A stretch of 64,000 bases of DNA from Catenulispora sp. MAP5-51 (GTDB taxonomy: Bacteria; Actinomycetota; Actinomycetes; Streptomycetales; Catenulisporaceae). Positions 9,466 to 48,764 of the stretch are shown one piece after another. The position numbers and the translations under genes are program-made. Location: positions 186,001 through 250,000 of the forward strand of contig NZ_JBGCCH010000005.1 in the NCBI RefSeq assembly GCF_041261205.1. The letters run 5' to 3'. How positions within the stretch are numbered: position 1 is the first letter of the stretch; each line of letters begins with the position of its first letter. The notes beneath the pieces are model-generated. The model did no database searches and was not told where the DNA came from. It was given only the letters and a program-made list of their open reading frames with translations.

Positions 9466-10446
9466 TTAGTGCCCCCGCACCACCCGATCGCCCAAGTCGG
9501 TCCGCCGGTATCGGATCTCGTGCCGCTGCCGCTCGCCGACGACCATGCCGGCCTCGCGCAGCACCGACAGGTGCTCCGAGACGGTGCCGAGCGCGAGCGC
9601 GTGCCGGTGCGCCAGGCGGCTGGTGGAGGCCGGCTCCTCCAAGCCGGTGAGCAGGTGCGCGCGGGTGCGGCCGACGAGCTTGGTCAGGGCCGCCGCCGGG
9701 GTGCCGCGCCGGGCCTCGAAGGCGTTGCCCAGGCCGCGTGCCGGGTAGACGAGGGTCGGCTGCCAGGGGGCGTCGGTGATGACGATGACCTCGTCCCACT
9801 TGAACGCGCTCGGCATCAGGATCAGCCCGCGGCCGTCGAGGTCGTGGTGCTCGTCGCCGCCCGGGTCGCGGATCAGGGTGTCGCCGGTCCAGTGGACGGT
9901 CGGGTGCAGGTCGGAGAACAGGGCGTCCAGGCCGCCGGCGGCCAGCCGCCGGGACTGGTGGGCGACGTCGGCCTCCAGCAGGGTCCTGATCCGCGGCCAG
10001 TGCGGCGCGACCAGCGTCTCCCAGGCGCCGCGGATCAGCTGCGTCAGCAGGCTGAGGACCTCGGCCGGGTCGCCGAGCAGCAGCCGGCCGGTCGGGGTGT
10101 CGCGGCCGCCGGGGGTGTAGCGCAGCGCGAGCTCGATCTCGCGGCGCACGACCGGCGCGGGGGTGGCGGCGATCCGGGTCAGCTCGGCGTCGAAGTCGCC
10201 GACCGGGGCGGTCGGCGGGGGCGCGAGGAAGTCGGGGGTGTAGCCGCGGCGGGGCTGGAGCAGGACGATCGGCTCCAGGCCCAGCCCGGGCAGCGTCGGG
10301 CGGACACTGTCCAGCCAGCGGGCGTGCGCGCCGGGGCCCTGGGAGCCGGTCGCGTCGCGGATCGCGGACAGCGTCTCGAAGGCCGGCGAGATCGCGAACC
10401 GGCAGCGGGCCAGGTCGGCCGGGCCGAAGCCGAGGCTGATGACCAT
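9466..10446 (-). CDS. ArsR-like winged-helix regulator with N-terminal DUF5937-type domain
   Basis: 326 residues. The last ~90 residues form an ArsR-type winged helix (L-A-L-G-T-V-S-E-H-L-S-V-L-R-E-A-G-M-V, R-H-E-I-R-Y-R). The larger N-terminal part resembles the actinobacterial domain commonly attached to such regulators. No metal-binding Cys cluster is visible, so it is probably not a metal sensor. The start ATG 10446 has an AGGAAGG site just upstream. It is convergent with the alpha/beta hydrolase, with 12 bp between stops. Confidence 0.75.
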   Translation of the reverse strand: MVISLGFGPADLARCRFAISPAFETLSAIRDATGSQGPGAHARWLDSVRPTLPGLGLEPIVLLQPRRGYTPDFLAPPPTAPVGDFDAELTRIAATPAPVVRREIELALRYTPGGRDTPTGRLLLGDPAEVLSLLTQLIRGAWETLVAPHWPRIRTLLEADVAHQSRRLAAGGLDALFSDLHPTVHWTGDTLIRDPGGDEHHDLDGRGLILMPSAFKWDEVIVITDAPWQPTLVYPARGLGNAFEARRGTPAAALTKLVGRTRAHLLTGLEEPASTSRLAHRHALALGTVSEHLSVLREAGMVVGERQRHEIRYRRTDLGDRVVRGH

Positions 10447-10472
10447 CGGGGCCTTCCTGGGAGGGGCAGGTG

Positions 10473-10490
10473 TTTCGGCGGTGGCCGAAA
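10473..10490. promoter_or_regulatory. Inverted repeat in the ArsR/TPR divergent promoter
   Basis: TTTCGGC (10473-10479) and GCCGAAA (10484-10490) form a 7-bp inverted repeat with a 4-bp centre, 27-44 bp before the ArsR-like start. It is a candidate autoregulatory operator. Confidence 0.4.
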
Positions 10491-10565
10491 GACTTCCGAT
10501 GATCGTAGCGCCTCGGCAAGATCTTCCTCGCAAGGCAGATCGTTTTCACCAGGAGGGGAATTCCT

Positions 10566-11069
10566 ATGACCGCCGACCTGAAGGCCGACGTCAACCGCCG
10601 TGTGGCCGCTCTGTTCGCCGCGATCGACGACTACGACGAGGAGAGGTTCATCGCGGAGGTCGACGCGCTGGCCGCCGAGCTCCCTGAGGGCGATGCCGAC
10701 GCGATCTTCCATCGCGGTTGCGCGCGCGACAGCTGGGGGCACTCGGACCTCGCCGTGCCGATGTATGCCGAGGCGCTGGAAATCGGCGGCCTGACCGGGG
10801 AGAACCGGCGGCGGGCCATCATCCAGATGTCGAGCTCGCTGCGGAACATCGGGCGGGTCGAGGACGCGCTGGCGACGCTGCTCAAGGAGAAGGAGACCGG
10901 CGGCGAGGACCACCTGTCCGACGCGCTGGACTGCACGATCGCGCTGTGCCTGTCCACGCTCGGCCGCGACCGTGAGGGGCTGTCCCTGGTGCTCGTGGCA
11001 CTGGCCAAGCACCTGCCGCGCTACAACCGGTCGATGGCGAACTATGGCAGGGTCCTGCTTGAGGGCTAG
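10566..11069 (+). CDS. Tetratricopeptide-repeat protein
   Basis: 167 residues, all helical. It shows TPR-like paired helices with Ala/Gly at packing positions: A-I-F-H-R-G-C-A-R-D, A-V-P-M-Y-A-E-A-L-E, S-S-L-R-N-I-G-R-V-E-D-A-L-A-T-L. It resembles the short actinobacterial single-domain TPR proteins of unknown partner. The start ATG 10566 has an AGGAGGGG site. It is divergent from the ArsR-like regulator, with 119 bp between starts. The function beyond protein binding cannot be read. Confidence 0.75.
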   Translation: MTADLKADVNRRVAALFAAIDDYDEERFIAEVDALAAELPEGDADAIFHRGCARDSWGHSDLAVPMYAEALEIGGLTGENRRRAIIQMSSSLRNIGRVEDALATLLKEKETGGEDHLSDALDCTIALCLSTLGRDREGLSLVLVALAKHLPRYNRSMANYGRVLLEG

Positions 11070-21236: not shown

Positions 21237-23222
21237 TCAGTGAGCGGCCAGCGTGTTGATCGCCGCGGCGGTGGTCGGTCCGCAGATGCCGCGCGGGTCG
21301 GCGGTGATGTTGAGCATGTTCTGCACGTAGGCGACGGCGTCGGTGGTGCGGGTGTCGTAGACCCCGGTCACCGGGACCCAGGTGGGGGTGCCGAGGCGGT
21401 CCAGCAGGGTCTGCAGGATGGAGACGTTCGGGCCTGTGTCGCCGGCCTGCAGGGTGCCCGCACTGGGGGAGATCTGCGGGGTGCTCGGGTCCGGGGTGCT
21501 GGGAGCCGAGGAGGTGGGTGTCGGCGCCGGGGTGGTCGGGGTCGGCGTCGTCGGGGTGGTCGGTGTCGGGGTCGTGGGCGTGCCCGGGGTGCCGGGCGTG
21601 CTGGAGACCGGGGTGTTCGGCAGCGACGAGGTCGGCGGGGCCGGCGTGCCGGGGTCCGACGAGGTGCCGGTCGGGGCGCCCGGGGTGCTGGGCGTGGTGG
21701 AGACCGGGCTGGTGGCCGGGGCGCCCGGCTGGGTGCTCGAGATCGGGCCGTTGGACGGGATTCCGGGCGCCGAGGTGAGCGGCGTGCCCGGCGCGGAGGA
21801 CGTGCCGCCGGCGGTGGTCGACGTGCTGGGCGCCGTGCTGCGCGAGCCGGGGGCGCTGGTCTGCTGGCCGGGGTTCGGCGCGGAGAGCGAATCGCCGCCG
21901 GAGGTGGTCGCGTCCAGCGGCGAGGTCGCCGGATCGGAGCTGGCCGGGTTGGCCCCGGTGGAGCCGTCGGAGGGCGCGTTGCTCAGGTCGGTGGTGATGG
22001 TCGAGTTGTTGTTCCCCGACGCCATGTCCACGGCCGAGCCGGGAGCCCCGGAGGACACCGCGTGCACCAGCCCGAGCGCGCCGCCGCCGGCCGCGAGCAC
22101 CGCCGCGATCGGCACTGCGGCCCGGAAAGCGGGACGCCGCGGGCCCCGGTGCCGGCCGCCGGAGGGGCCGTCGGAGCCGCCGCGGCCGAACGGGGGCAGG
22201 TCGTCGTCATCGCCGCCGCCGAAGTACCCGGACCCCGACGAGGGCATCACCGTGGTCTCGTCGACCGGGCGCCGGAACAGTTCCTGTCCGATCGCCCGCT
22301 CGGACAACCGCGTGATCTCGGTGCGGCGCTCAGGCAGCCGCGAGTCGCCGCCGGAGGCGGAGCCGGCTATTCGGCGCTCCTCGGCGGCCCGCAACCACTC
22401 GGGCTCCGGACGCCGCGACGGCGCCGGGGTCCGCAGGTCGCGGGTGAGGCCCTCGGCACCCTGGGCGGCCGGGGCCGTCGACTGGCGCTGGGGGAGGGCG
22501 CTTCGGCCCTCGGGAGCAGCCGGTCGGGGCTGGAACGAGGGGTGCTGCGGTGCCGGGGCGGCCGGAGCGGCCGGTCGGGGCTGGAACGAGGGGTGCTGCG
22601 GTGCGGCGGACTGCTGGGCCGCGGCGCTCGGCATCCCGGGCCGCGGCGCGTTCGGCCGGGGCTGGAACGAGGGGTGCTGGCCGGAGGGAGCCGCGGACTG
22701 CGGCTGGGCCGGGCGCGGCTGGAACGACGGATGCTGCGGTGCGGCCGGCATCCCAGCCTGCGGCGCGTTCGGGCGCGGCTGGAAGGAAGGATGCTGCTGC
22801 GCCGGAGCAGGCTGAGCGCCCGGAGCGCCCGGCCGGGGCTGGAACGACGGATGCTGTCCGGCGGCGGGCTGCTGCGGCGCGTACGGACGCGGCTGGAACG
22901 ACGGATGCTGTCCCGCGGCGCCCTGCTGCGGAGCGCTCGGCCGAGGCTGGAACGAAGGATGCTGCGCACCCTGTGCCGCACTGGCACCCGCGCCCGGATG
23001 GGCACCCGCCTGCGGTCCGCGACCGCCCGGCTGCTGTCCGTACCCGGTCACCTGGCTCTGCCCCTGTCCGGAACCCGGCAGCCACGACGGGTCCGGGACC
23101 CGGGGCTGCGTCATCGGCAGGTTGCTCTCGGTGTGCGGCGCGCTCGCGCCCCGGTTCTGGCCGGGCACGGCGCGCGTCTGTCTCGGGGCCGGGCGACGGC
23201 CGCCGTCGTTCGTCTCAGCCAC
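21237..23222 (-). CDS. Membrane-anchored repeat protein with C-terminal peptidoglycan-binding domain
   Basis: 661 residues, type II topology. The cytoplasmic part (1-365) is disordered and contains eight copies of Q-H-P-S-F-Q-P-R-P (about 87-237). A membrane helix lies at about 366-389. A Pro/Thr/Ser-rich linker follows, and the last ~75 residues form a PG_binding_1-type domain (L-Q-A-G-D-T-G-P-N-V-S-I-L-Q, V-T-G-V-Y-D). The start GTG 23222 is fixed by a GGAGGA site. The adjacent upstream gene has the same architecture. The protein could link a cytoplasmic partner to the cell wall; no enzyme domain is visible. Confidence 0.75.
   Translation of the reverse strand: MAETNDGGRRPAPRQTRAVPGQNRGASAPHTESNLPMTQPRVPDPSWLPGSGQGQSQVTGYGQQPGGRGPQAGAHPGAGASAAQGAQHPSFQPRPSAPQQGAAGQHPSFQPRPYAPQQPAAGQHPSFQPRPGAPGAQPAPAQQHPSFQPRPNAPQAGMPAAPQHPSFQPRPAQPQSAAPSGQHPSFQPRPNAPRPGMPSAAAQQSAAPQHPSFQPRPAAPAAPAPQHPSFQPRPAAPEGRSALPQRQSTAPAAQGAEGLTRDLRTPAPSRRPEPEWLRAAEERRIAGSASGGDSRLPERRTEITRLSERAIGQELFRRPVDETTVMPSSGSGYFGGGDDDDLPPFGRGGSDGPSGGRHRGPRRPAFRAAVPIAAVLAAGGGALGLVHAVSSGAPGSAVDMASGNNNSTITTDLSNAPSDGSTGANPASSDPATSPLDATTSGGDSLSAPNPGQQTSAPGSRSTAPSTSTTAGGTSSAPGTPLTSAPGIPSNGPISSTQPGAPATSPVSTTPSTPGAPTGTSSDPGTPAPPTSSLPNTPVSSTPGTPGTPTTPTPTTPTTPTPTTPAPTPTSSAPSTPDPSTPQISPSAGTLQAGDTGPNVSILQTLLDRLGTPTWVPVTGVYDTRTTDAVAYVQNMLNITADPRGICGPTTAAAINTLAAH
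22518..22964 (-). repeat. Coding array of eight QHPSFQPRP motifs
   Basis: The nine-residue motif is repeated eight times, separated by 7-18 residues rich in Ala, Pro and Gln. The motif is nearly invariant while the spacers vary, which implies selection on the motif. Confidence 0.85.
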
Positions 23223-23486
23223 GCTGAACTCCTCCGTTCGCGGGCCGGGGCCGGGTGGCGCCGGCTTCGGTCTGCTCTCGCGGGGATTCGGTGCCGGTCG
23301 CTGGCTCGTGGCGGAGGCTGTCCGCCGCGTACTGCGACCGCACTGGCACCCCGGGTAAGTCGGGCTCCAAAGGCTGCTGCGGCGCGGACATGTCTGCCTC
23401 CGTGACGTCCTTCGTGGCGTGGCGCGACTTCGGGCGATCACCGACGCTATCACTCTGATGTTCGTCCCGGGGCCCGAATCCGGCTA

Positions 23487-35389: not shown

Positions 35390-36685
35390 TCAGCGCCGAG
35401 CGAATCGCCTGACCAGCACCAGCCCACCGGCCACCAGCACCAGCCCGCCCGAGGCGGCGCCGGCCAGCATCGGCGTCGACATGCCGGTGAACGCCAGGCC
35501 GCCGTGCTTGACGCAGCCGCCTGACTTGTCAGCCGGGCCGCAGCATCGGTCGGGCCTCGTCGTCGAGTGGCCGGAGCAGCATCCTGCCGAGTGCGGTCCG
35601 CAGCAGGTGCTCGGTCCGGAGCAGCACCCGGTCGCATGGGGTCCGCAGCAGCTGTTCGCCGAGCCCGCCTTGTCCGAGCAGCACTGGCTGCCGCTCTTGT
35701 CCGTGCAGCACTGGCTCGTCTTGTCCGTGCAGCACCAGCTGCCGCTCTTGTCCGTGCAGCACTGGCTCGTCTTGTCCGAGCAGCACCAGCTGCCGCTCTT
35801 GTCCGAGCAGCACCCGCTCGTCTTGTCCGAGCAGCACCCGCTCGTCTTGTCCGCGCAGCACCCGCTCGTCTTGTCCGAGCAGCACCCGCTCGTCTTGTCC
35901 GCGCAGCACCCGCTCGCCTTGTCCGCGCAGCACCCGCTCGTCTTGTCCGCGCAGCACTGGCTTGTCTTGTCCGCGCAGCACCGGCTCGCCTTGTCCGAGC
36001 AGCAGCCGCTACCGCTACCACTGCCGCCCTTACCGGCTCCGCAGCAGTTCTCTTCCGCCCCCGCGGATCCGCCCACGCACCCGTTCGCGACCGGCGCCTT
36101 CCCCGGGTCCGCGGGCGCGTGGTTCGGCGGGTCCGCCGGGTCGGCCGGGTCCCGGGGCGGCGGGGCGAACGTCGGGGGGTGTGGCGGGCGTCCGGAGGCC
36201 GGGTCCGGGGCCAGCGGCGGGTGGAAGGCCGGGGCGCGCGGCGGGGGCGGGGGCGGGGGCAGGAAGCCGTTGTAGTGCAGGGAAGTGGTGCGCAGCAGAG
36301 GACCCTCGCTGGGGACGTTCGCGGTCGCGCGGGCCACCAGGGTGTGGAAGCCGACTGCCGCGGTGACCAGGGCCGTGCACTGCAGGGACTGGTCCGGTTC
36401 CAGGGACAGGTGCCCGTTCTGGCCGGCCGGGCAGGTCACCGGCAGGGGGCGCGGGTCCAGGTCGCGGAGGCTGATCGTGATATCGCGCAGGTCGGCCTCG
36501 CCGGGGGTGTCGGCCAGAGTGATGTGCACCGTGTGCCTGGTGCCGACCAGGAGGCGCTGGTCCTGGCCGTCCATCGTGGCGGTCAGGGTCATGCCCGCGC
36601 CGCCGCCGGCGAACGCCGGGGTGGCGGCGGCGAGCGTCGGGGCAAGGCTGAGACCGACCGCCAGCAGTAATCGCAAAGTACGCAT
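35390..36685 (-). CDS. Secreted Cys-pair repeat protein with LAFTG cell-wall sorting signal
   Basis: 431 residues. Signal peptide 1-26; a beta-rich, Ig-like domain at about 30-125 with two Cys (85, 103); a proline-rich stalk at about 142-195. From 214 to 382 there are 20 Cys-Cys pairs, mostly in C-C-x-D-K-T-S-x units spaced exactly 8 residues (228-292) and then alternating 9 and 8. The C-terminus is L-A-F-T-G (397-401), a hydrophobic helix and R-R-F-A-R-R, i.e. a class E-type sortase signal. No sortase gene is in the window. I know of no named family. It probably forms a cross-linked or metal-rich surface stalk; this is inference. Confidence 0.8.
   Translation of the reverse strand: MRTLRLLLAVGLSLAPTLAAATPAFAGGGAGMTLTATMDGQDQRLLVGTRHTVHITLADTPGEADLRDITISLRDLDPRPLPVTCPAGQNGHLSLEPDQSLQCTALVTAAVGFHTLVARATANVPSEGPLLRTTSLHYNGFLPPPPPPPRAPAFHPPLAPDPASGRPPHPPTFAPPPRDPADPADPPNHAPADPGKAPVANGCVGGSAGAEENCCGAGKGGSGSGSGCCSDKASRCCADKTSQCCADKTSGCCADKASGCCADKTSGCCSDKTSGCCADKTSGCCSDKTSGCCSDKSGSWCCSDKTSQCCTDKSGSWCCTDKTSQCCTDKSGSQCCSDKAGSANSCCGPHATGCCSGPSTCCGPHSAGCCSGHSTTRPDRCCGPADKSGGCVKHGGLAFTGMSTPMLAGAASGGLVLVAGGLVLVRRFARR
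35651..36004 (-). repeat. 24/27-bp coding tandem array of Cys-Cys repeats
   Basis: Near-identical 24-bp units (core TTGTCCGAGCAGCACCCGCT as read on the plus strand) encode C-C-x-D-K-T-S-x; the units nearest the 3' end are longer by one codon. The units are similar enough to recombine, so copy number may vary among strains. Confidence 0.9.
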
Positions 36686-36787
36686 GCTTCCAGATATGGG
36701 AAGCGCGGTACTGCGTTATGTCCGGCGCGCCGTCAGTTCCCACCGATGGACCACTCTTCGACCGAGCGTCCACTCATCCGATGGTCC

Positions 36788-37489
36788 TCACGGTTGAAAC
36801 CGGTACCCCATCCCCGGCTCTGTCAGCAGATGCGCCGGCCGTGACGGCTCGCGCTCGAGTTTGCGCCGCAGCTTCGTGAAGTGGAACCGCAGCAGCGGCG
36901 TGTCGTTCTCGTACCCGTGCCCCCACACCTCGGTGAGCAGCTGCCGCGCCGACACCAGCCGCCCGGCGTTCTTCAACAGCACCTCGACGATGCCCCACTC
37001 GGTCGGCGTCAGGTGAACCGTCGGCGGCACCGTCTGCGGCGCCTCCGGCACCCGGGTGATGGTGTGCGAGGCCACGTCCACGTCGAAGTCCCCGACCCGC
37101 TGCACCGCCGTCTTGGGCGCGTTGCGGTCGGCGTGCCGGCGCGCCACCCGCAGCCGGGCCAGCAGCTCCTCCATCGAGAACGGCTTGGTCAGGTAGTCGT
37201 CGGCGCCGGCGTCCAGGGCCTCGACCTTGTCCGAGGCGTCGGCGCGGCCGGAGAGCACCACGATCGGCACCTCCGTCCAGCCCCGCAGCCCCTTGATCAC
37301 CTCGGCGCCGTCCAGGTCCGGCAGACCCAGGTCGAGCACCACCAGGTCGGGCAGCGTGCGCGCGGCTATGGCCAGCGCCGAGGTGCCGTCGACGGCGGTG
37401 ACCACGTCGTACTTGCGGGCGGTCAGGTTGATCCGCAGCGCGCGCAGCAGCTGCGGTTCGTCGTCGACCACCAGGACCTTGATCATCAT
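36788..37489 (-). CDS. kdpE: KdpE response regulator (OmpR/PhoB family)
   Basis: 233 residues. The receiver has D-D (9-10), phospho-acceptor Asp53 and Lys102 in L-T-K-P-F. The winged-helix output domain has L-T-P-T-E-W, V-W-G-H-G-Y and R-R-K-L-E. It activates the kdp operon when KdpD senses low potassium. Its ATG overlaps the kdpD stop (ATGA at 37489-37486), so the two are translationally coupled. OmpR-type regulators bind direct repeats, matching the box found in this region. Confidence 0.92.
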   Translation of the reverse strand: MMIKVLVVDDEPQLLRALRINLTARKYDVVTAVDGTSALAIAARTLPDLVVLDLGLPDLDGAEVIKGLRGWTEVPIVVLSGRADASDKVEALDAGADDYLTKPFSMEELLARLRVARRHADRNAPKTAVQRVGDFDVDVASHTITRVPEAPQTVPPTVHLTPTEWGIVEVLLKNAGRLVSARQLLTEVWGHGYENDTPLLRFHFTKLRRKLEREPSRPAHLLTEPGMGYRFQP

Positions 37490-40140
37490 CGGGCGGGCTC
37501 CTCAGCAGCGATGCCGGCGGCGGTGTCCGCGGTGGTGTTCTCGGCGCCGCCGGAGTCATCCTCGTCCCCGGCCATACCCGCCGCGGGCAGCGAAACCACC
37601 ATCGTCATCCCGCCGCCGGGCGTCTCCTCGGGCGTGAGCGTGCCGCCCATGGCCTCCACCAGCCCCCGGGACAGCGCCAGTCCCAGGCCCACGCCGGTGG
37701 TGTTGTCCCGGTCCCCGAGGCGCTGGAACGGCGTGAAGACCCGCTCCCAGTCCTCCGGCCGGATCCCCGGCCCGCGGTCGGTCACCCGCAGCTCCACCCT
37801 TCCCCCCAGCTCCGAAGCGGTGAGCAGGACCGGCCGGATCAGCGAGCCGTACTTCAGGGCGTTGGCGATCAGGTTCGCCACGGCCCGCTCCAGCAGCACC
37901 GGGTCGGCCAGCACGTCCGGCACCCCGGACAGCTGCCCGAACTGCACCTTGGACCGGTCCTCGATGCCCAGGCTGTCCAGCGCCATCATGGCCACGTCCT
38001 CCACGGCCACGTCCTCCAGCCGCAGGTTCAGCGCCCCGGCCTGCAGCCGGCTCATGTCCAGCAGGTTCTCCACCAGGCGCGAGAGCCGGTCCAGCGACTC
38101 CTCGGCGCCGGCCAGCAGCTCGGCCCGGTCCTGCTCGGACCACTGCACCGTGGTGTCGCGCAGCGAGGCCACCGACAGCTTCGCGGCGGCCAGCGGCGTG
38201 CGCAGGTCGTGCGAGACCGCGGCCAGCAGCGCCGTGCGCATCTTGTCCGCGGCCGCCAGCGGCACCGCCTCGGCCGCCTGCCGGGCCAGCCGCGAGCGCT
38301 CCAGCGCCACCGCCGCCTGCGCCGCGAACGCGGTGAGCACGTGCTGGTCGGCGGCCGGCAGCGCGCGCCCGCGCAGCACCAGCATCGCGTCCGGGCCGGC
38401 CTGCACCACCACGTCGCCCTCGCCGGGCGCGCGGCACGGCATCGTGCCGGTGCCGGAGGTCGCCGCCACGATCCGCCACGCGTCCGGGTCGTCCGTCTCG
38501 TCCGGCAGCACCGGGATGCTGGGGTCGACCCGCTCCAGCAGCGCCACCGACTCCATGCCGAACGTCTCCCGGAACCGGCCCAGCAGCGCCCCGATGGCCT
38601 CGTCGCCCCGCAGCACCGAGCGCGCCAGCTCCGAGAGCGTCTCGGCCTCCGCCGAGGCCTTCCCGGCCCGCCGCTCCTGCCGCGAGGCGAAGTCCACGAC
38701 CGAGGCCACGATCAGCGCCACCAGCGCGAACACCACCAGCGCGACGATGTTCTGCGGGTCGTTGATGGTCAGCCGGTATATCGGCCGGATGAAGTAGTAA
38801 TTCAGCAGCAGCGAGGCGGTCAGGGAGGCGAAGAACGCCGAGAGCAGGCCGCCCAGGCGCGCCACCGCGACCACCCCGGCCAGGAAGATCAGCACCTGGT
38901 TGGTCAGGTTCAGCTCCGAGCGCAGGCTCGCCAGGATCATGGTGAGCACGATCGGCACGATCAGCCCGGCCACCGGCCCCCACCAGCGCGGCCCCGTCTC
39001 CGGCTGCCTGGCCACCCGCTTGATCCAGGCCAGCCGGCTCTGGTCGGCCGCCGAGCGCTCGTGGGTGACCATGTGCACGTCGATGTCGCCGGACTGCTGC
39101 ACCACGGTCTCGCCGATCCCGTAGCCGCCCAGGAACCGCTCCAGCCGGCCCCGCCGCGACACCCCGACCACCAGCTGCGTGGCGTTCTCGGCGCGCGCGA
39201 ACTGCAACAGCGCGTTGGGGATGTCATCGCCGACCACCGAGTGGAAGGTGCCGCCCAGGGACTCCACCAGGTCCCGCTGCTCGGCCAGCAGCGCCGGCGA
39301 GGCGCCGGTCAGTCCGTCGGAGCGGGCCACGTGCACGGCCAGCAGGTCCGAGCCCTTGGCGCCGAGCCGCTGCGCGATGCGCGCGCCGCGGCGGATCAGC
39401 GTGGCGCCCTCCGGGCCGCCGGTCAGCGCGACCACGACCCGCTCCCGGGTCTCCCAGACCTTGTCGATGCCGTGCTGGTCGCGGTAGTGCTGCAGCGCCT
39501 CGTCCACCCGGCCGGCGACCCACAGCAGGGCCAGCTCGCGCAGCGCGCCGAGGTTGCCGGGCCGGAAGTAGTTCGACAGCGCGGCGTCGATCTTCTCCGG
39601 CTTGTAGATGTTGCCGTGCGCCATCCGGCGGCGCAGGGCCTCCGGCGCCATGTCGATCAGCTCGATCTGGTCCGCCGAGCGCACCACCTCGTCCGGTACC
39701 GTCTCCCGCTGCGGGACCCCGGTGATCTTCTGGACGACGTCGTTCAGCGACTCCAGGTGCTGGACGTTGACCGAGGCTATGACGTCGATCCCGGCGGCCA
39801 GCAGGTCCTCGACGTCCTGCCAGCGCTTGGCGTTGCGCGAGCCCGGGATGTTGGTGTGCGCGAGCTCGTCGATCATCACCACCGACGGCTGCCGCTCCAG
39901 GATGGCCTCGACGTCCATCTCCTCGAACTCCGAGCCCCGGTACTCCATTCGGCGGCGCGGCACGATCTCCAGGCCGTCCAGCATGGCCTCGGTGTGCGGC
40001 CGGTCGTGCGTCTCCACGAAGCCCACGACCACGTCGCCGCCCCGCTCGGCGCGCCGCTGGGCCTCGTCGAGCATGTGGTACGTCTTGCCGACACCGGGCG
40101 CGGCGCCCAGGTAGACGCGCAGCTTTCCGCGAGTGCTCAT
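37486..40140 (-). CDS. kdpD: KdpD potassium-responsive sensor histidine kinase
   Basis: 884 residues. The N-terminal KdpD domain has a Walker A G-A-A-P-G-V-G-K-T (12-20) and M-I-D-E-L-A-H-T-N. A universal-stress-protein-like domain follows (about 245-365), then four membrane helices (about 400-490), a GAF-like region, and the kinase with V-S-H-D-L-R-T-P-L (phospho-His about 645) and N-, G1- and G2-boxes (N-A-L-K-Y, D-R-G-P-G-I, G-V-G-L-G-L-A). ATG 40140 has AGAGGTGA upstream. It is divergent from the SAV_915-family gene, with a KdpE-like box in between. Confidence 0.95.
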   Translation of the reverse strand: MSTRGKLRVYLGAAPGVGKTYHMLDEAQRRAERGGDVVVGFVETHDRPHTEAMLDGLEIVPRRRMEYRGSEFEEMDVEAILERQPSVVMIDELAHTNIPGSRNAKRWQDVEDLLAAGIDVIASVNVQHLESLNDVVQKITGVPQRETVPDEVVRSADQIELIDMAPEALRRRMAHGNIYKPEKIDAALSNYFRPGNLGALRELALLWVAGRVDEALQHYRDQHGIDKVWETRERVVVALTGGPEGATLIRRGARIAQRLGAKGSDLLAVHVARSDGLTGASPALLAEQRDLVESLGGTFHSVVGDDIPNALLQFARAENATQLVVGVSRRGRLERFLGGYGIGETVVQQSGDIDVHMVTHERSAADQSRLAWIKRVARQPETGPRWWGPVAGLIVPIVLTMILASLRSELNLTNQVLIFLAGVVAVARLGGLLSAFFASLTASLLLNYYFIRPIYRLTINDPQNIVALVVFALVALIVASVVDFASRQERRAGKASAEAETLSELARSVLRGDEAIGALLGRFRETFGMESVALLERVDPSIPVLPDETDDPDAWRIVAATSGTGTMPCRAPGEGDVVVQAGPDAMLVLRGRALPAADQHVLTAFAAQAAVALERSRLARQAAEAVPLAAADKMRTALLAAVSHDLRTPLAAAKLSVASLRDTTVQWSEQDRAELLAGAEESLDRLSRLVENLLDMSRLQAGALNLRLEDVAVEDVAMMALDSLGIEDRSKVQFGQLSGVPDVLADPVLLERAVANLIANALKYGSLIRPVLLTASELGGRVELRVTDRGPGIRPEDWERVFTPFQRLGDRDNTTGVGLGLALSRGLVEAMGGTLTPEETPGGGMTMVVSLPAAGMAGDEDDSGGAENTTADTAAGIAAEEPAR

Positions 40141-40388
40141 CGCACCGTCACCTCTGTCACCACAGCCACGCACTGATCGTCCCACGTGCGCGAATGGCTG
40201 GATAACCGCCGGCGTTTGCATCTCGTTTGCGATTGGCCGCCGGAGCTGCATCGTGACCGGGTTCACAAGGTCCGCTTGCGGGGTGTGGGCGTTCCGGGCG
40301 GGTCCGCTTGGGTCGTGTTGGCGGGTCTGCCGGCGGCGGTTCCGGGCTCCTACTTTCGGAAGGGAAGAGCGGAAAGAAGGAGCACATC
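40141..40388. promoter_or_regulatory. Divergent kdpD / SAV_915 promoter region
   Basis: 248 bp carrying the two leftward and rightward promoters. The direct-repeat box at 40214-40231 is the main visible signal; no other gene is seen. Confidence 0.5.
40214..40231 (+). promoter_or_regulatory. KdpE-like box, site A
   Basis: GTTTGCATCTCGTTTGCG contains TTTGC at 40215 and again at 40226, exactly 11 bp apart, the spacing typical of OmpR/PhoB-family regulators. It lies 74 bp before kdpD. Confidence 0.6.
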
Positions 40389-44147: not shown

Positions 44148-44226
44148 GAACATCATCGGCCTGATCGTGTCGGTCCTGCTGGTCGGCTATCTCATAGCGG
44201 CCCTGATCCTCCCGGAGAAGTTCTGA
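44137..44226 (+). CDS. kdpF: KdpF, small subunit of the Kdp potassium pump
   Basis: 29 residues, single membrane helix with N-I-I-G-L-I-V and the terminal L-P-E-K-F. This closely parallels mycobacterial KdpF. It probably starts at TTG 44137 and its stop overlaps the kdpA ATG (TGATG at 44224-44228). It stabilises the KdpABC complex in the membrane. Confidence 0.8.
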   Translation: MSAENIIGLIVSVLLVGYLIAALILPEKF

Positions 44227-45911
44227 TGTCGGACACCTGGGCCGGCTTGCTTCAAGTCGCCGCGCTGGTCCTCCTGCTGGCCGTGTCCTACCGGCCGCTG
44301 GGCGACTACATGGCGCACATTCTCACCACGAAGAAGCACTCTCGTGCGGAGAAGGTGCTTTACAAGGCGATGGGCGTTGATCCCGAGGCGGATCAGACGT
44401 GGGGCACGTACCTGCGTTCGGTGTTCGCCATCTCGGCGGTCGGGGTCCTGCTCCTGTATCTGCTGCTGCGGGTCCAGCACCACCTGATGATGGCGCTGGG
44501 CATGCCGAAGGTGAACGCGGACCTGGCCTACAACACGGCCGCGTCCTTCGTCACGAACACCAACTGGCAGAACTACTCGGGTGAGAACACCCTGGGCTAT
44601 GTCGCGCAGGCGACGGGTCTGGCGGTGCAGAACTTCGTGTCGGCCTCGGTCGGCATCGCGGTGGTCGCGACCCTGATCCGCGGCTTCACGCGCAACCGCA
44701 CCGACCGCCTGGGCAACTTCTGGGTGGACCTGACCCGGGTCCTGATCCGGCTGATGCTGCCGTTCTCCATCGTGTTCGCGGTGATCCTGGTCGCCTGCGG
44801 TTCGGTGCAGTCCCTGGGCGACCACATGACCGTGGTGCACACGATCAACGGCAACCAGAGCCTGTACACCGGTGCGACCGCCAGCCAGGAGGTCATCAAG
44901 GAGCTCGGCACCAACGGCGGCGGTATCTTCAACGCCAACTCCTCGCATCCGTTCGAGAACCCCACGGCGTTCACGAACCTGATCGAGATCTACCTGCTGC
45001 TGGTCATCGGTTTCGCGCTGCCGCGCACGTTCGGGAAGATGGTCGGCTCGCACAAGCAGGGCTACACCATCGTGTCGGTGATGGCGATCATCTGGATCGG
45101 CTCGTTGGCGTTCTCGACCTTCGCCGAGACCCACCACCACGGTGTGAACCTGGTCAGTGGCCACGCCGGCTTGGAGGGCAAGGAGTCCAGGTTCGGCATC
45201 CCGGCCTCGACCCTGTTCATGACGTCCACGACGTTGACCTCGACCGGCGCGATCAACTCCTGGCACGACTCGTACACGCCGTTCGGCGGCGGTGCGGCCA
45301 TGTTCAACATGATGTTGGGTGAGATCGCGCCCGGCGGTACCGGCTCGGGCCTGTACGGCATGCTGATCCTGGCGATCATCACCGTGTTCATCGCCGGTCT
45401 GATGGTCGGCCGCACGCCGGAGTACCTGGGCAAGAAGATCCGCCCGACCGAGATGAAGTACGCGGCGCTGTACATCCTCACCACCCCCGCCGTCGTGCTC
45501 ATCTTCACTGGTCTGGCGATGGCGCTGAAGGGCGAGACCGCCTCGATCAACTCGGGGAACCTGGGCCCCAACGGCAGTCCGTCGCCACACGGCTTCTCCG
45601 AGATCTTGTACGCCTTCACCTCGATGGGCAACAACAACGGCTCGGCCTTCGGGGGGCTGTCCGGCAACACCCATTGGTGGAACACCGCCGGCGCGCTGGC
45701 GATGCTGTTCGGCCGGTTCCTGCCGATGATCTGGGTGCTGGCGCTGGCCGGGTCGCTGGCCAAGCAGAAGCCGGTCCCGGAGACCGAGGGCACGCTCAAG
45801 ACCGCCTCGCCGCTGTTCGCGGGGATGCTGCTGGGCACCGTGCTGCTGGTCGTCGGCCTCACCTACTTCCCGGCCCTGTCGCTCGGGCCGCTCGCTGAAG
45901 GACTGCACTGA
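44226..45911 (+). CDS. kdpA: Potassium-transporting ATPase, K+-binding subunit
   Basis: 561 residues, about ten membrane helices with four selectivity-filter-like repeats, e.g. [24 protein letters not shown] and [10 protein letters not shown]. It forms the K+ pathway of the high-affinity pump. The ATG overlaps the kdpF stop and its own stop overlaps the kdpB ATG, giving strict coupling. Confidence 0.97.
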
Positions 45912-48037
45912 TGTCTGCCAACACCCTGACGGAAGCTGCTCCCGCGCCGCGGGCCCCGCAGCAGAACCCGGGCGGTGAACCGCGCCGCGTCGGCGGCGGG
46001 TTCCTGGACCCGAAGATGCTCTGGAAGTCGCTTCCGGACGCCCTGAAGAAGCTCGACCCCCGGGTCATGATGAAGAACCCGGTGATGTTCGTCGTCGAGG
46101 TCGGCTCCGCGCTGACCACGTACGAGGCCGTCACCAAGCCCTCGGTGTTCGCCTGGGTCATCACGGTGTGGCTGTGGCTGACCGTGGTGTTCGCCAACCT
46201 GGCCGAGGCCGTTGCCGAAGGCCGTGGCAAGGCCCAGGCCGCGACCCTGCGCAAGGCCAAGACCACGACCGTGGCCCGGCGCCTGGCGTCCTGGTCCCCG
46301 GGCCAGTCCGGCGCGGAGTCCGAGGTCCCGGGCACCGAGTTGCAGCTCGGCGACTTCGTGGTGGTCGAGGCCGGGCAGGTCATCCCGGGCGACGGTGACG
46401 TCGTCGAGGGTGTGGCCTCGGTGGACGAGTCGGCGATCACCGGCGAGTCGGCCCCGGTCATCCGGGAGTCCGGCGGCGACCGGTCGGCCGTGACCGGCGG
46501 GACCAAGGTGCTGTCGGACCGGATCGTCGTGAAGATCACCTCCAAGCCGGGGGAGACCTTCATCGACCGGATGATCAGCCTGGTCGAGGGCGCGAACCGG
46601 CAGAAGACGCCGAACGAGCTGGCGCTGAACGTGCTGCTGGCCTCGCTGACCATCGTGTTCCTGCTCGCGGTCGTGACCCTGCAGCCGATGGCCACCTGGG
46701 CCGGGGCCGCGCAGTCGCTGGTCGTCATGGTCTCGCTGCTGGTGGCGCTGATCCCGACCACGATCGGCGCGCTGCTCTCGGCGATCGGCATCGCCGGCAT
46801 GGACCGGCTGGTGCAGCGCAACGTGCTGGCCATGTCCGGCCGCGCGGTCGAGGCCGCCGGTGACATCAACACCCTGCTGCTGGACAAGACCGGAACGATC
46901 ACGCTCGGGAACCGCCAGGCCAGCGAGTTCGTGCCGGTGGCCGGCGTGGACAAGGACGCGCTCGCCGACGCCGCGCAGCTTTCGTCGCTCGCCGACGAGA
47001 CGCCCGAGGGCCGCTCCATCGTGGTGCTGGCCAAGACGGCTTATGGGTTGCGCGAGCGTCATCAGGGTGAGCTGAGCGGCGCGGAGTTCGTGCCCTTCAC
47101 CGCGCAGACCCGCATGTCCGGGGTCAACCTGGCCGACGGCCGGCAGGTCCGCAAGGGCGCCGGAGCGGCGGTCATGAAGTGGGTCCGCGACAACGGTGGT
47201 CACCCCACCGACGAGGTCGGCCAGGCGGTCGACGCCATCTCCGGCGCCGGCGGCACCCCGCTGGTGGTGGCCGAGTTCGTGCCCGGCAAGCCGGCCCGCA
47301 CCCTGGGCGTCATCCACCTGAAGGACGTCGTCAAGGAAGGCATCCGCGAGCGGTTCGCCGAGCTGCGGCAGATGGGCATCAAGACGGTCATGATCACGGG
47401 TGACAACCCGCTGACCGCCAAGGCCATCGCCGAGGAGGCCGGGGTCGACGACTTCCTGGCCGAGGCCACGCCCGAGGACAAGATGGCGCTGATCAAGAAG
47501 GAGCAGGAGGGCGGCAAGCTGGTCGCGATGACCGGCGACGGCACCAACGACGCCCCCGCCCTGGCCCAGGCCGACGTCGGCGTGGCCATGAACACCGGCA
47601 CCTCGGCCGCCAAGGAGGCCGGGAACATGGTGGACCTGGACTCCAACCCGACCAAGCTGATCGAGATCGTCGAGATCGGCAAGCAGCTGCTGATCACCCG
47701 CGGCGCCCTGACCACCTTCTCCATCGCCAACGACGTCGCGAAGTACTTCGCGATCATCCCGGCCATGTTCACGGTGATCTACCCGGGCCTGCACGTGCTG
47801 AACATCATGGGCCTGCACTCGCCGAAGTCGGCGATCACCAGCGCCATCATCTTCAACGCCCTGATCATCATCGGCCTGATCCCGCTGGCCCTGCGCGGCG
47901 TGCGCTACAAGCCGTCCTCGGCCTCCGCGCTGCTGCGCCGCAACCTGTGGATCTACGGCGCCGGCGGTCTGGCGCTGCCCTTCGTCGGCATCAAACTGAT
48001 CGACCTGATCGTCATGTACATCCCCGGACTGAAGTAG
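45911..48037 (+). CDS. kdpB: Potassium-transporting P-type ATPase catalytic subunit
   Basis: 708 residues. The actuator motif T-G-E-S is at about 177, the phosphorylation motif D-K-T-G-T-I-T at about 325, and the hinge T-G-D-G-T-N-D-A-P at about 540, with seven membrane helices. It hydrolyses ATP to drive K+ uptake through KdpA. Length and motifs are normal. Its stop is followed by kdpC after 13 bp. Confidence 0.97.
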
Positions 48038-48050
48038 GAAGGAGCCGACC

Positions 48051-48698
48051 ATGAAACTCGGAGCAGCAATCCGGCGGCACACCGCCGCCATCCGGGCCAT
48101 GCTGGTGTTCACGGTGATCCTCGGAATCGCCTACCCGCTGCTGGTCACCGGCATCGCGCAGCTGGCGTTCAAGGACAAGGCCAACGGCTCACTCATCAAG
48201 AACGCGCAGGGCCAGGTGGTCGCTTCCAGCCTGCTGTGCCAGCAGTACGTCGACAAGTCAGGCGACGCCCTGCCGCAGTACTTCCAGGCCCGGCCGTCGG
48301 ACGCCACGAACTCCGCCAATTCGAGCGACCCCGGCTGTAACTACTCCTACTCGGCCGGCTCGAACCTGGGCACCGACAGCGCCACGCTGAAGAACACCAT
48401 CGAGGGCCGCATCGCCTCCTACGCCAAGGCGTACAACGTGGACCCGACCAAGGTGCCCGAGGACGCGGTGACCGCCTCGGCCTCCGGCATGGACCCGGGT
48501 ATCTCGGTCCAGAACGCCGACGACCAGGCCGCCTCGGTCGCCAAGGCCCGCGGCGTGGACCTGGCCACGGTGCAGAAGCTGGTCAAGACCAACACGACCG
48601 GGCGCTCGCTGGGGTTCCTGGGCGAGCAGTACGTGAACGTCGTGACCCTGAACCTGGCTCTGGACAAGACCCACCCGGTCGCCACGGCACAGAGCTGA
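48051..48698 (+). CDS. kdpC: Potassium-transporting ATPase subunit C
   Basis: 215 residues. One N-terminal membrane helix (M-L-V-F-T-V-I-L-G-I-A-Y-P-L) and an extracytoplasmic domain with F-Q-A-R-P-S, N-S-S-D-P-G-C-N-Y-S and G-R-S-L-G-F-L-G-E. It bridges KdpA and KdpB. It has an AGGAAGGAG ribosome site. It is the last gene of the kdp operon, followed by a strong terminator. Confidence 0.95.
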   Translation: MKLGAAIRRHTAAIRAMLVFTVILGIAYPLLVTGIAQLAFKDKANGSLIKNAQGQVVASSLLCQQYVDKSGDALPQYFQARPSDATNSANSSDPGCNYSYSAGSNLGTDSATLKNTIEGRIASYAKAYNVDPTKVPEDAVTASASGMDPGISVQNADDQAASVAKARGVDLATVQKLVKTNTTGRSLGFLGEQYVNVVTLNLALDKTHPVATAQS

Positions 48699-48724
48699 GA
48701 GAGCGCCGGCAGGACGCCGGCGGC

Positions 48725-48764
48725 AAGGCTGCAAGGCTGCAAGGCTGCAAGGCTGCAAGGCGGC
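48725..48764. repeat. Five 8-bp tandem repeats after kdpC
   Basis: AAGGCTGC is repeated four times and followed by a variant AAGGCGGC that is also part of the terminator stem. Such a tract is prone to slippage, but it lies outside coding sequence. Confidence 0.85.

Follow-up and report, generated by a model that had tools for sequence, protein, structure and literature searches.

The window, a 64,000-nucleotide stretch of the 10.9 Mb genome of Catenulispora sp. MAP5-51 (genome G000), contains on its minus strand the gene of a cysteine-rich protein, whose features are listed in the table below, together with those of the upstream region. A sequence-only reading of the window had singled out this frame as encoding a protein with 20 Cys-Cys pairs, and the frame, its strand and its number of pairs are confirmed.

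Features of the gene of the CC-array protein and of its upstream region; positions are those of the window.
Feature	Positions	Strand	Remarks
Whole gene, CC-array surface protein	35390..36685	-	ATG start, 431 aa, TGA stop
Signal peptide, residues 1-26	36608..36685	-	By inspection and by conservation in the alignment; cleavage assumed after AFA
N-terminal domain, residues 27-141, DUF7507-like	36263..36607	-	Profile alignment; invariant cysteines C85 and C103
Proline-rich stalk, residues 142-202	36080..36262	-	26 Pro within residues 143-202
C-(CC)20-C array, residues 203-391	35513..36079	-	21 presumed loops of 5-12 residues
LAFTG sorting pentapeptide, residues 397-401	35483..35497	-	Sequence and ortholog alignment
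Membrane helix and basic tail RRFARR, residues 402-431	35393..35482	-	By inspection
Conserved noncoding block (GACGGCGCGCC...CATAAC)	36714..36749	-	Upstream of the start codon; alignment of nine genomes
KdpE-like response regulator	36788..37489	-	Upstream neighbor; best NCBIfam match is to KdpE, scoring under the cut-off
KdpD-like sensor kinase	37486..40266	-	Upstream neighbor; PF02702 above cut-off, NCBIfam KdpD equivalog below cut-off; synteny

The 44 cysteines of the protein, each encoded by TGC (GC1 0.60, GC2 0.67 and GC3 0.92 for the gene), comprise two in the N-terminal domain, the single Cys203, 20 adjacent pairs (CC) and the single Cys391, the two single cysteines being 188 residues apart. 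The array had been described as a strictly periodic C-C-x-D-K-T-S-x repeat, of which the 20 pairs stand, whereas the strictness does not: the pair-to-pair interval is 8 or 9 in 15 of 19 cases, the remaining four being 14, 11, 7 and 12, and CC-x-D-K is found at 14 of the 20 pairs. No Pfam family matches the protein at E≤1, so there is neither a chaplin nor a metallothionein match, and no NCBIfam family (metallothionein included) is above its cut-off, the sole NCBIfam matches being staphylococcal clumping-factor models, far below their cut-offs and across the low-complexity part. This is in agreement with the earlier impression that the array belongs to no known family. The Ig-like domain proposed by the same reading is weakly supported, through a faint likeness to DUF7507: the DUF7507 profile (PF24346) matches the window protein with 14.0 bits (gathering cut-off 27; E 0.051) and matches six of the ten members of the family, with a best E of 0.033 and always below the cut-off. 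The best match of the N-terminal domain in a sequence search of the PDB has an E of only 0.24, and two AlphaFold models, calculated from 3-row alignments, have mean pLDDT values of 42 and 33 and are unusable.

A signal peptide, a C-terminal hydrophobic helix and a basic tail are all present in the window protein, as seen by inspection of the sequence and the alignment. The sorting signal L-A/P-FTG is read through in nine of ten orthologs, being LAFTG in eight and LPFTG in G007; in G003 an in-frame stop occurs soon after the last cysteine, ahead of the sorting signal, and a sorting-signal-like sequence lies beyond it. This stop may be an assembly error, given that the G003 assembly is 81% complete. 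The Pfam Gram_pos_anchor profile has no match at E≤1 in the window protein, and among the orthologs it has a single match, in G007 (13.9 bits, cut-off 20). LAXTG is described as the sorting signal recognized by class E sortases (PMC5148588), whose substrates are reported to shape development in Streptomyces and Actinoplanes (PMC5148588, PMC13251363). The genome contains ten matches to the sortase family PF04203, and two of these were examined with the class E model of NCBIfam (NF033747), both being above its cut-off. The protein anatomy, together with these two sortases, supports the earlier proposal of a sortase-anchored surface protein, predicted here to be secreted and anchored by a class E-type sortase.

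The genes for KdpD, KdpE, DegV, LysR, MFS and LeuS proteins adjoin the gene in constant order wherever the contig extends far enough to include them, and a RidA gene is a neighbor in six of the nine other genomes (it is not found in G003, G005 and G007). The kdpA, kdpB and kdpC genes, at 44226-48698, are on the strand opposite to kdpD and kdpE; the linkage of the CC-array gene to this predicted potassium-uptake locus is constant. Between positions 37486 and 48698, a decarboxylase and an amidohydrolase are flanked by kdpD-kdpE and kdpA-kdpB-kdpC; an 8-base tandem repeat GGCTGCAA (5.4 copies, 97% matches; 48719-48761) lies just downstream of kdpC, and a second copy of KdpA is encoded on contig C30. 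The upstream block of about 36 bases is strongly conserved in nine genomes despite differing distances between KdpE and the start codon, which suggests that the CC-array gene has its own promoter at this candidate site. A scan with the sigma-70 consensus found no promoter, and the block may act as a non-sigma-70 promoter.

A second repeat in the window, at 22643-22964, is CC-rich when read on the plus strand. A minus-strand frame of 738 residues (21237-23453) has tandem QHPSFQPRP repeats and what by eye resembles a C-terminal peptidoglycan-binding domain, and the CC-rich plus frame looks like the antisense of this gene. The possibility that the CC array itself is such an antisense artefact is rejected, because the start, the domain and the sorting signal of its minus-strand frame align across the genus.

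When searching 60 relatives, orthologs are found in all nine other Catenulispora genomes of the set (designated G001 to G009), the one of G001 being a fragment, as its contig begins inside the gene. The same search gives matches in four genomes outside the genus at E≤0.01, which are rejected as true orthologs, as by eye they look like low-complexity or antisense matches. The profile of the N-terminal domain, used against 293 genomes of the order with 13 candidates scored per genome, matches in nine Catenulispora genomes, missing only the truncated G001, and in one further genome (G081), where the match is a DUF7507 protein (3.4e-8) with only four cysteines and a collagen-like stretch below the cut-off. 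With the array and the C terminus as the query (35390-36082, minus strand), 394 genomes of the class, with seven candidates scored per genome, give matches in 15, the own genome included; the matches in the other 14 are weak, and there is no other Catenulispora genome among them, presumably because the sample of 394 contained none. In the 17 other loci of this array search, the most CC-rich frame of each has at most five CC, and the three with at least three CC carry no sorting motif. These sampled searches support, and fall short of proving, a restriction of the CC-array protein to the genus Catenulispora. In another genus of the family (G010), CC-rich short frames between stops, of at most 37 residues and with up to five CC, are seen at about 220-630 of locus L012, and these are probably the antisense of another repeat gene. 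G002 encodes a paralog (locus L041, about 9950-11020) that has the Ig-like domain and, at its C terminus, a hydrophobic stretch, and that has neither the cysteine array nor LAFTG. A literature search, outside which most subscription papers lie, brought up no recognizable account of the protein or of any C-(CC)n-C array, which is weak evidence of novelty. The evidence points to a real surface protein, so far seen only in Catenulispora, and to a new variation on the sortase-anchored stalk protein, with an unusual cysteine topology.

The order of the cysteines outside the N-terminal domain is the same in all ten Catenulispora genomes: a single cysteine, n adjacent pairs and a single cysteine. The value of n is 20 in the window protein, 19 in G008, 7 in G002, 6 in G004 and in G005, 5 in G009, 3 in G006 and in G003, 2 in the G001 fragment and 0 in G007, where the end cysteines are in the motif CPGGSGC, with five residues between them. 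Over the ten orthologs, there are 71 pairs, 81 loops of 5-14 residues and no unpaired interior cysteine. The loops have mostly small or polar residues: of the 697 loop residues, 69% belong to the small ones (G, S, A) and 11 to the hydrophobic set V, I, L, M, F, Y and W. In the nine orthologs with complete N termini, the total number of cysteines is always even, and the two cysteines of the N-terminal domain always have a spacing of 18. No ortholog lacks both the cysteine pairs, present in all except G007, and the sorting signal, present in all except G003. The charge pairing of alternating Asp and Lys residues, which the sequence-only reading had also suggested, is not borne out, since the DK unit is not kept: CC-x-D-K occurs once in the other nine orthologs, in a loop of G004.

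The abundance of pairs was compared with shuffled sequences in the nine orthologs with complete N termini, the G001 fragment being left out. Shuffling of the cysteine-containing region of the window protein gives 7.3 ± 1.8 CC pairs, with a maximum of 13 in 2000 shuffles, versus the 20 observed. The observed count is met by none of 2000 shuffles in G000, G008, G004, G002 and G005, and by a single one in G009. It is reached more often where n is 3 (54 shuffles in G006, 59 in G003), and by all 2000 in G007, for which n is 0. Under random ordering, both single cysteines would be terminal with a probability of 1/C(n+2,2), the product of which across the genomes is 6e-14, a number that ignores shared ancestry and is not a P value. 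Tandem duplication copies CC pairs whole, and therefore the many pairs inside the G000 and G008 arrays are not independent observations.

The two longest arrays are those of the closest pair of genomes, the window genome and G008, whose markers are 93% identical. In the tree of three neighboring proteins, these two genomes are sisters (with a support of only 66), and both group with G004 (support 100). The two arrays have similar lengths up to the sorting signal (194 residues in the window protein and 200 in G008) and are built from different units, which are of the CC-x-DK type in the window protein and of the CCGPHAPGCC(S/P)AGAGSA type in G008. The six-pair array of G004 has the loops SDKAAGPDG and GSHPAG, one resembling the unit of each long array. 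The DNA units are near-identical within the G000 array and within the G008 array, so the amplification of both looks recent. The two longest arrays have thus been amplified from different units, so that it is the topology that is kept and not the sequence. TGT is used alongside TGC in G008, G004 and G002, where cysteine codons change without loss of the cysteine; between the deeper branches, the loop sequences have, by eye, little in common.

It is possible, with about an even chance, that the CC-array protein is a wall-attached stalk of variable length made of n+1 abutting disulfide loops, a model in which secretion, anchoring, disulfides, their pairing and the role as a stalk are all inferred. 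The protein would be secreted and joined to the cell wall at LAFTG by a class E-type sortase, with the Ig-like head outermost and spaced from the wall by the proline stalk and by a series of small disulfide loops. The first single cysteine would be bonded to the first cysteine of pair 1, the second cysteine of each pair to the first cysteine of the next pair, and the second cysteine of the last pair to the final single cysteine, generating n+1 abutting loops, which are 21 in the window protein and one in the shortest ortholog, with an almost free loop sequence. Such a chain would be a compact, hydrophilic stalk, resistant to protease and acid, whose length would evolve through the gain or loss of whole loops. 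This arrangement explains the single end cysteines, the intact pairs, the free sequence and length of the loops, the absence of a hydrophobic core (the few hydrophobic loop residues leave no core to fold around) and the one-loop ortholog, G007, in which the five residues between the end cysteines would be one minimal loop. It retains the disulfide ladder of the sequence-only reading, which is the best of its options, in a different form, namely as serial abutting loops, as indicated by the single ends and the intact pairs. The other two options of that reading, a metal store and cross-links between cells or hyphae, are less likely. Against the loop-chain model, the disulfides are inferred only, VKOR and DsbB are absent, the AlphaFold models are unusable, the G003 frame stops before the sorting signal, and one species evidently does without the array, as its G007 protein has no pairs.

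The absence of VKOR is the strongest counter-evidence. VKOR (PF07884) is found in none of the ten Catenulispora genomes; it is found in 44 of the 45 genomes of another genus (g4) and in two of the four other genomes of the family, and one genome of a third family is likewise without it. DsbB is not found in the own genome, and thus neither of the usual reoxidants of DsbA/MdbA-type enzymes was found. These enzymes themselves are represented by seven matches to PF13462 (DsbA/MdbA-like), with a CXXC motif detected by script in five of the six loci read. A search for Evr1/Alr gives no match, though the control genomes gave none either, so this absence is uninformative. In Actinomyces oris, MdbA is described as being reoxidized by VKOR, and overexpressed MdbA made up for the loss of VKOR (PMC5478893), from which it follows that VKOR is not strictly required there. 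The type species of Catenulispora is reported to grow at pH 4.3-6.8 and to be essentially aerobic (PMC3035231), and an acid, aerobic habitat would favor disulfides over thiolate-metal binding.

The same cysteines could instead be intermolecular cross-linkers, the CC pairs bonding neighboring molecules or hyphae into a keratin-like or exosporium-like protein coat. Keratin-associated proteins resemble the window protein in having CC pairs with small-residue spacers. A cysteine-rich spore-surface protein with consecutive cysteines, CdeC, is reported to self-assemble in a partly redox-dependent way (PMC7677010), and the hyphae and sporangia of an actinomycete are described as being shaped by sortase-anchored proteins (PMC13251363). 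However, cross-linking leaves the single end cysteines and the absence of any unpaired interior cysteine in all ten orthologs unexplained and would have little capacity in the species in which n is 0-3, and it is considered unlikely. The single ends are predicted neither by cross-linking nor by the next two alternatives, metal binding and vicinal rings.

The protein could also be an extracellular binder of metals or metalloids, in which reduced vicinal thiols would hold Cu(I), Zn, Cd, Hg or As(III), ions of the type that vicinal dithiols do bind, and for which the absence of VKOR would suit a less oxidized exoplasm. In the compact clusters of metallothioneins, cysteines are arranged unlike the pairs seen here, which are 5-14 residues apart; none of the conserved neighbors followed (KdpD, KdpE, RidA, DegV, LysR, MFS and LeuS) is obviously related to metals, and the acid, aerobic habitat, the drifting length and content of the loops and the lack of a Pfam family match leave this reading with a small probability. 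If each pair were to form a vicinal disulfide, an eight-membered ring, the array would be a succession of rigid turns that might act as redox switches, with the ends paired mutually or with other molecules. In favor of this, none of the 71 pairs of interior cysteines in the ten orthologs is broken, and vicinal disulfides are described as occurring, though rarely (PMC7191308); they are strained, and they leave the end cysteines, so far apart in the window protein, without a local partner, which makes this arrangement very unlikely. The least probable of all is a neutral low-complexity tandem repeat, expanding and drifting, with cysteines merely tolerated in a spacer, as the recent expansion seen in the near-identical DNA units of G000 and G008, the range of n from 0 to 20 and the stop after the array in G003 would allow, but the cysteine order holds even between deeper branches whose loops, by eye, are barely alike in sequence, cysteine is retained with both TGT and TGC in use in G008, G004 and G002, and the end cysteines are present in ten of ten orthologs.

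The stalks of sortase-anchored proteins are usually folded repeats or low-complexity stretches of Ser, Pro and Asp. Returning to the loop-chain model, evolution seems to keep the cysteine order alone, across 1 to 21 presumed loops in one genus, with the rest drifting. It is a tentative and somewhat doubtful extension that the architecture, C-(CC)n-C, is set by this order alone, as a length-tunable wall stalk of one genus that is oxidized without VKOR by a new exoplasmic route. If the loop-chain model is true, a covalently braced spacer that is almost free of sequence constraint would follow from a simple genetic rule, and the question would arise of how a VKOR-less genus oxidizes a wall protein with as many as 44 cysteines.

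When compared with known systems, the N-terminal domain has a weak profile likeness to DUF7507 (PF24346) proteins over residues 34-108, and in the window protein it is present as a single copy, followed by the cysteine array. Keratin-associated proteins have short repeats that contain CC. Those of hair share with the window protein a richness in cysteine, their own content being about 40% (PMC7191308). They are matrix proteins of animal fibers, and no Pfam match ties them to the window protein. CdeC of the Clostridioides difficile exosporium is a spore protein, unlike the window protein, and is not known to be sortase-anchored. CdeC is described as likewise having many cysteines (37), some of them consecutive, and as having a redox-dependent assembly in a surface layer (PMC7677010). 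Among the class E sortase substrates of filamentous actinomycetes, the long chaplins ChpA-C and the proteins SspA, CwpA and CwpB of Actinoplanes missouriensis are reported to have, likewise, an LAXTG- or LPXTG-type signal, a membrane region and basic residues, and SspA is described as putatively disordered (PMC5148588, PMC13251363). Chaplin domains are described as hydrophobic, with GN motifs and two cysteines per domain (PMC13251363), whereas the window protein, having no Pfam chaplin match, carries a hydrophilic C-(CC)n-C array.
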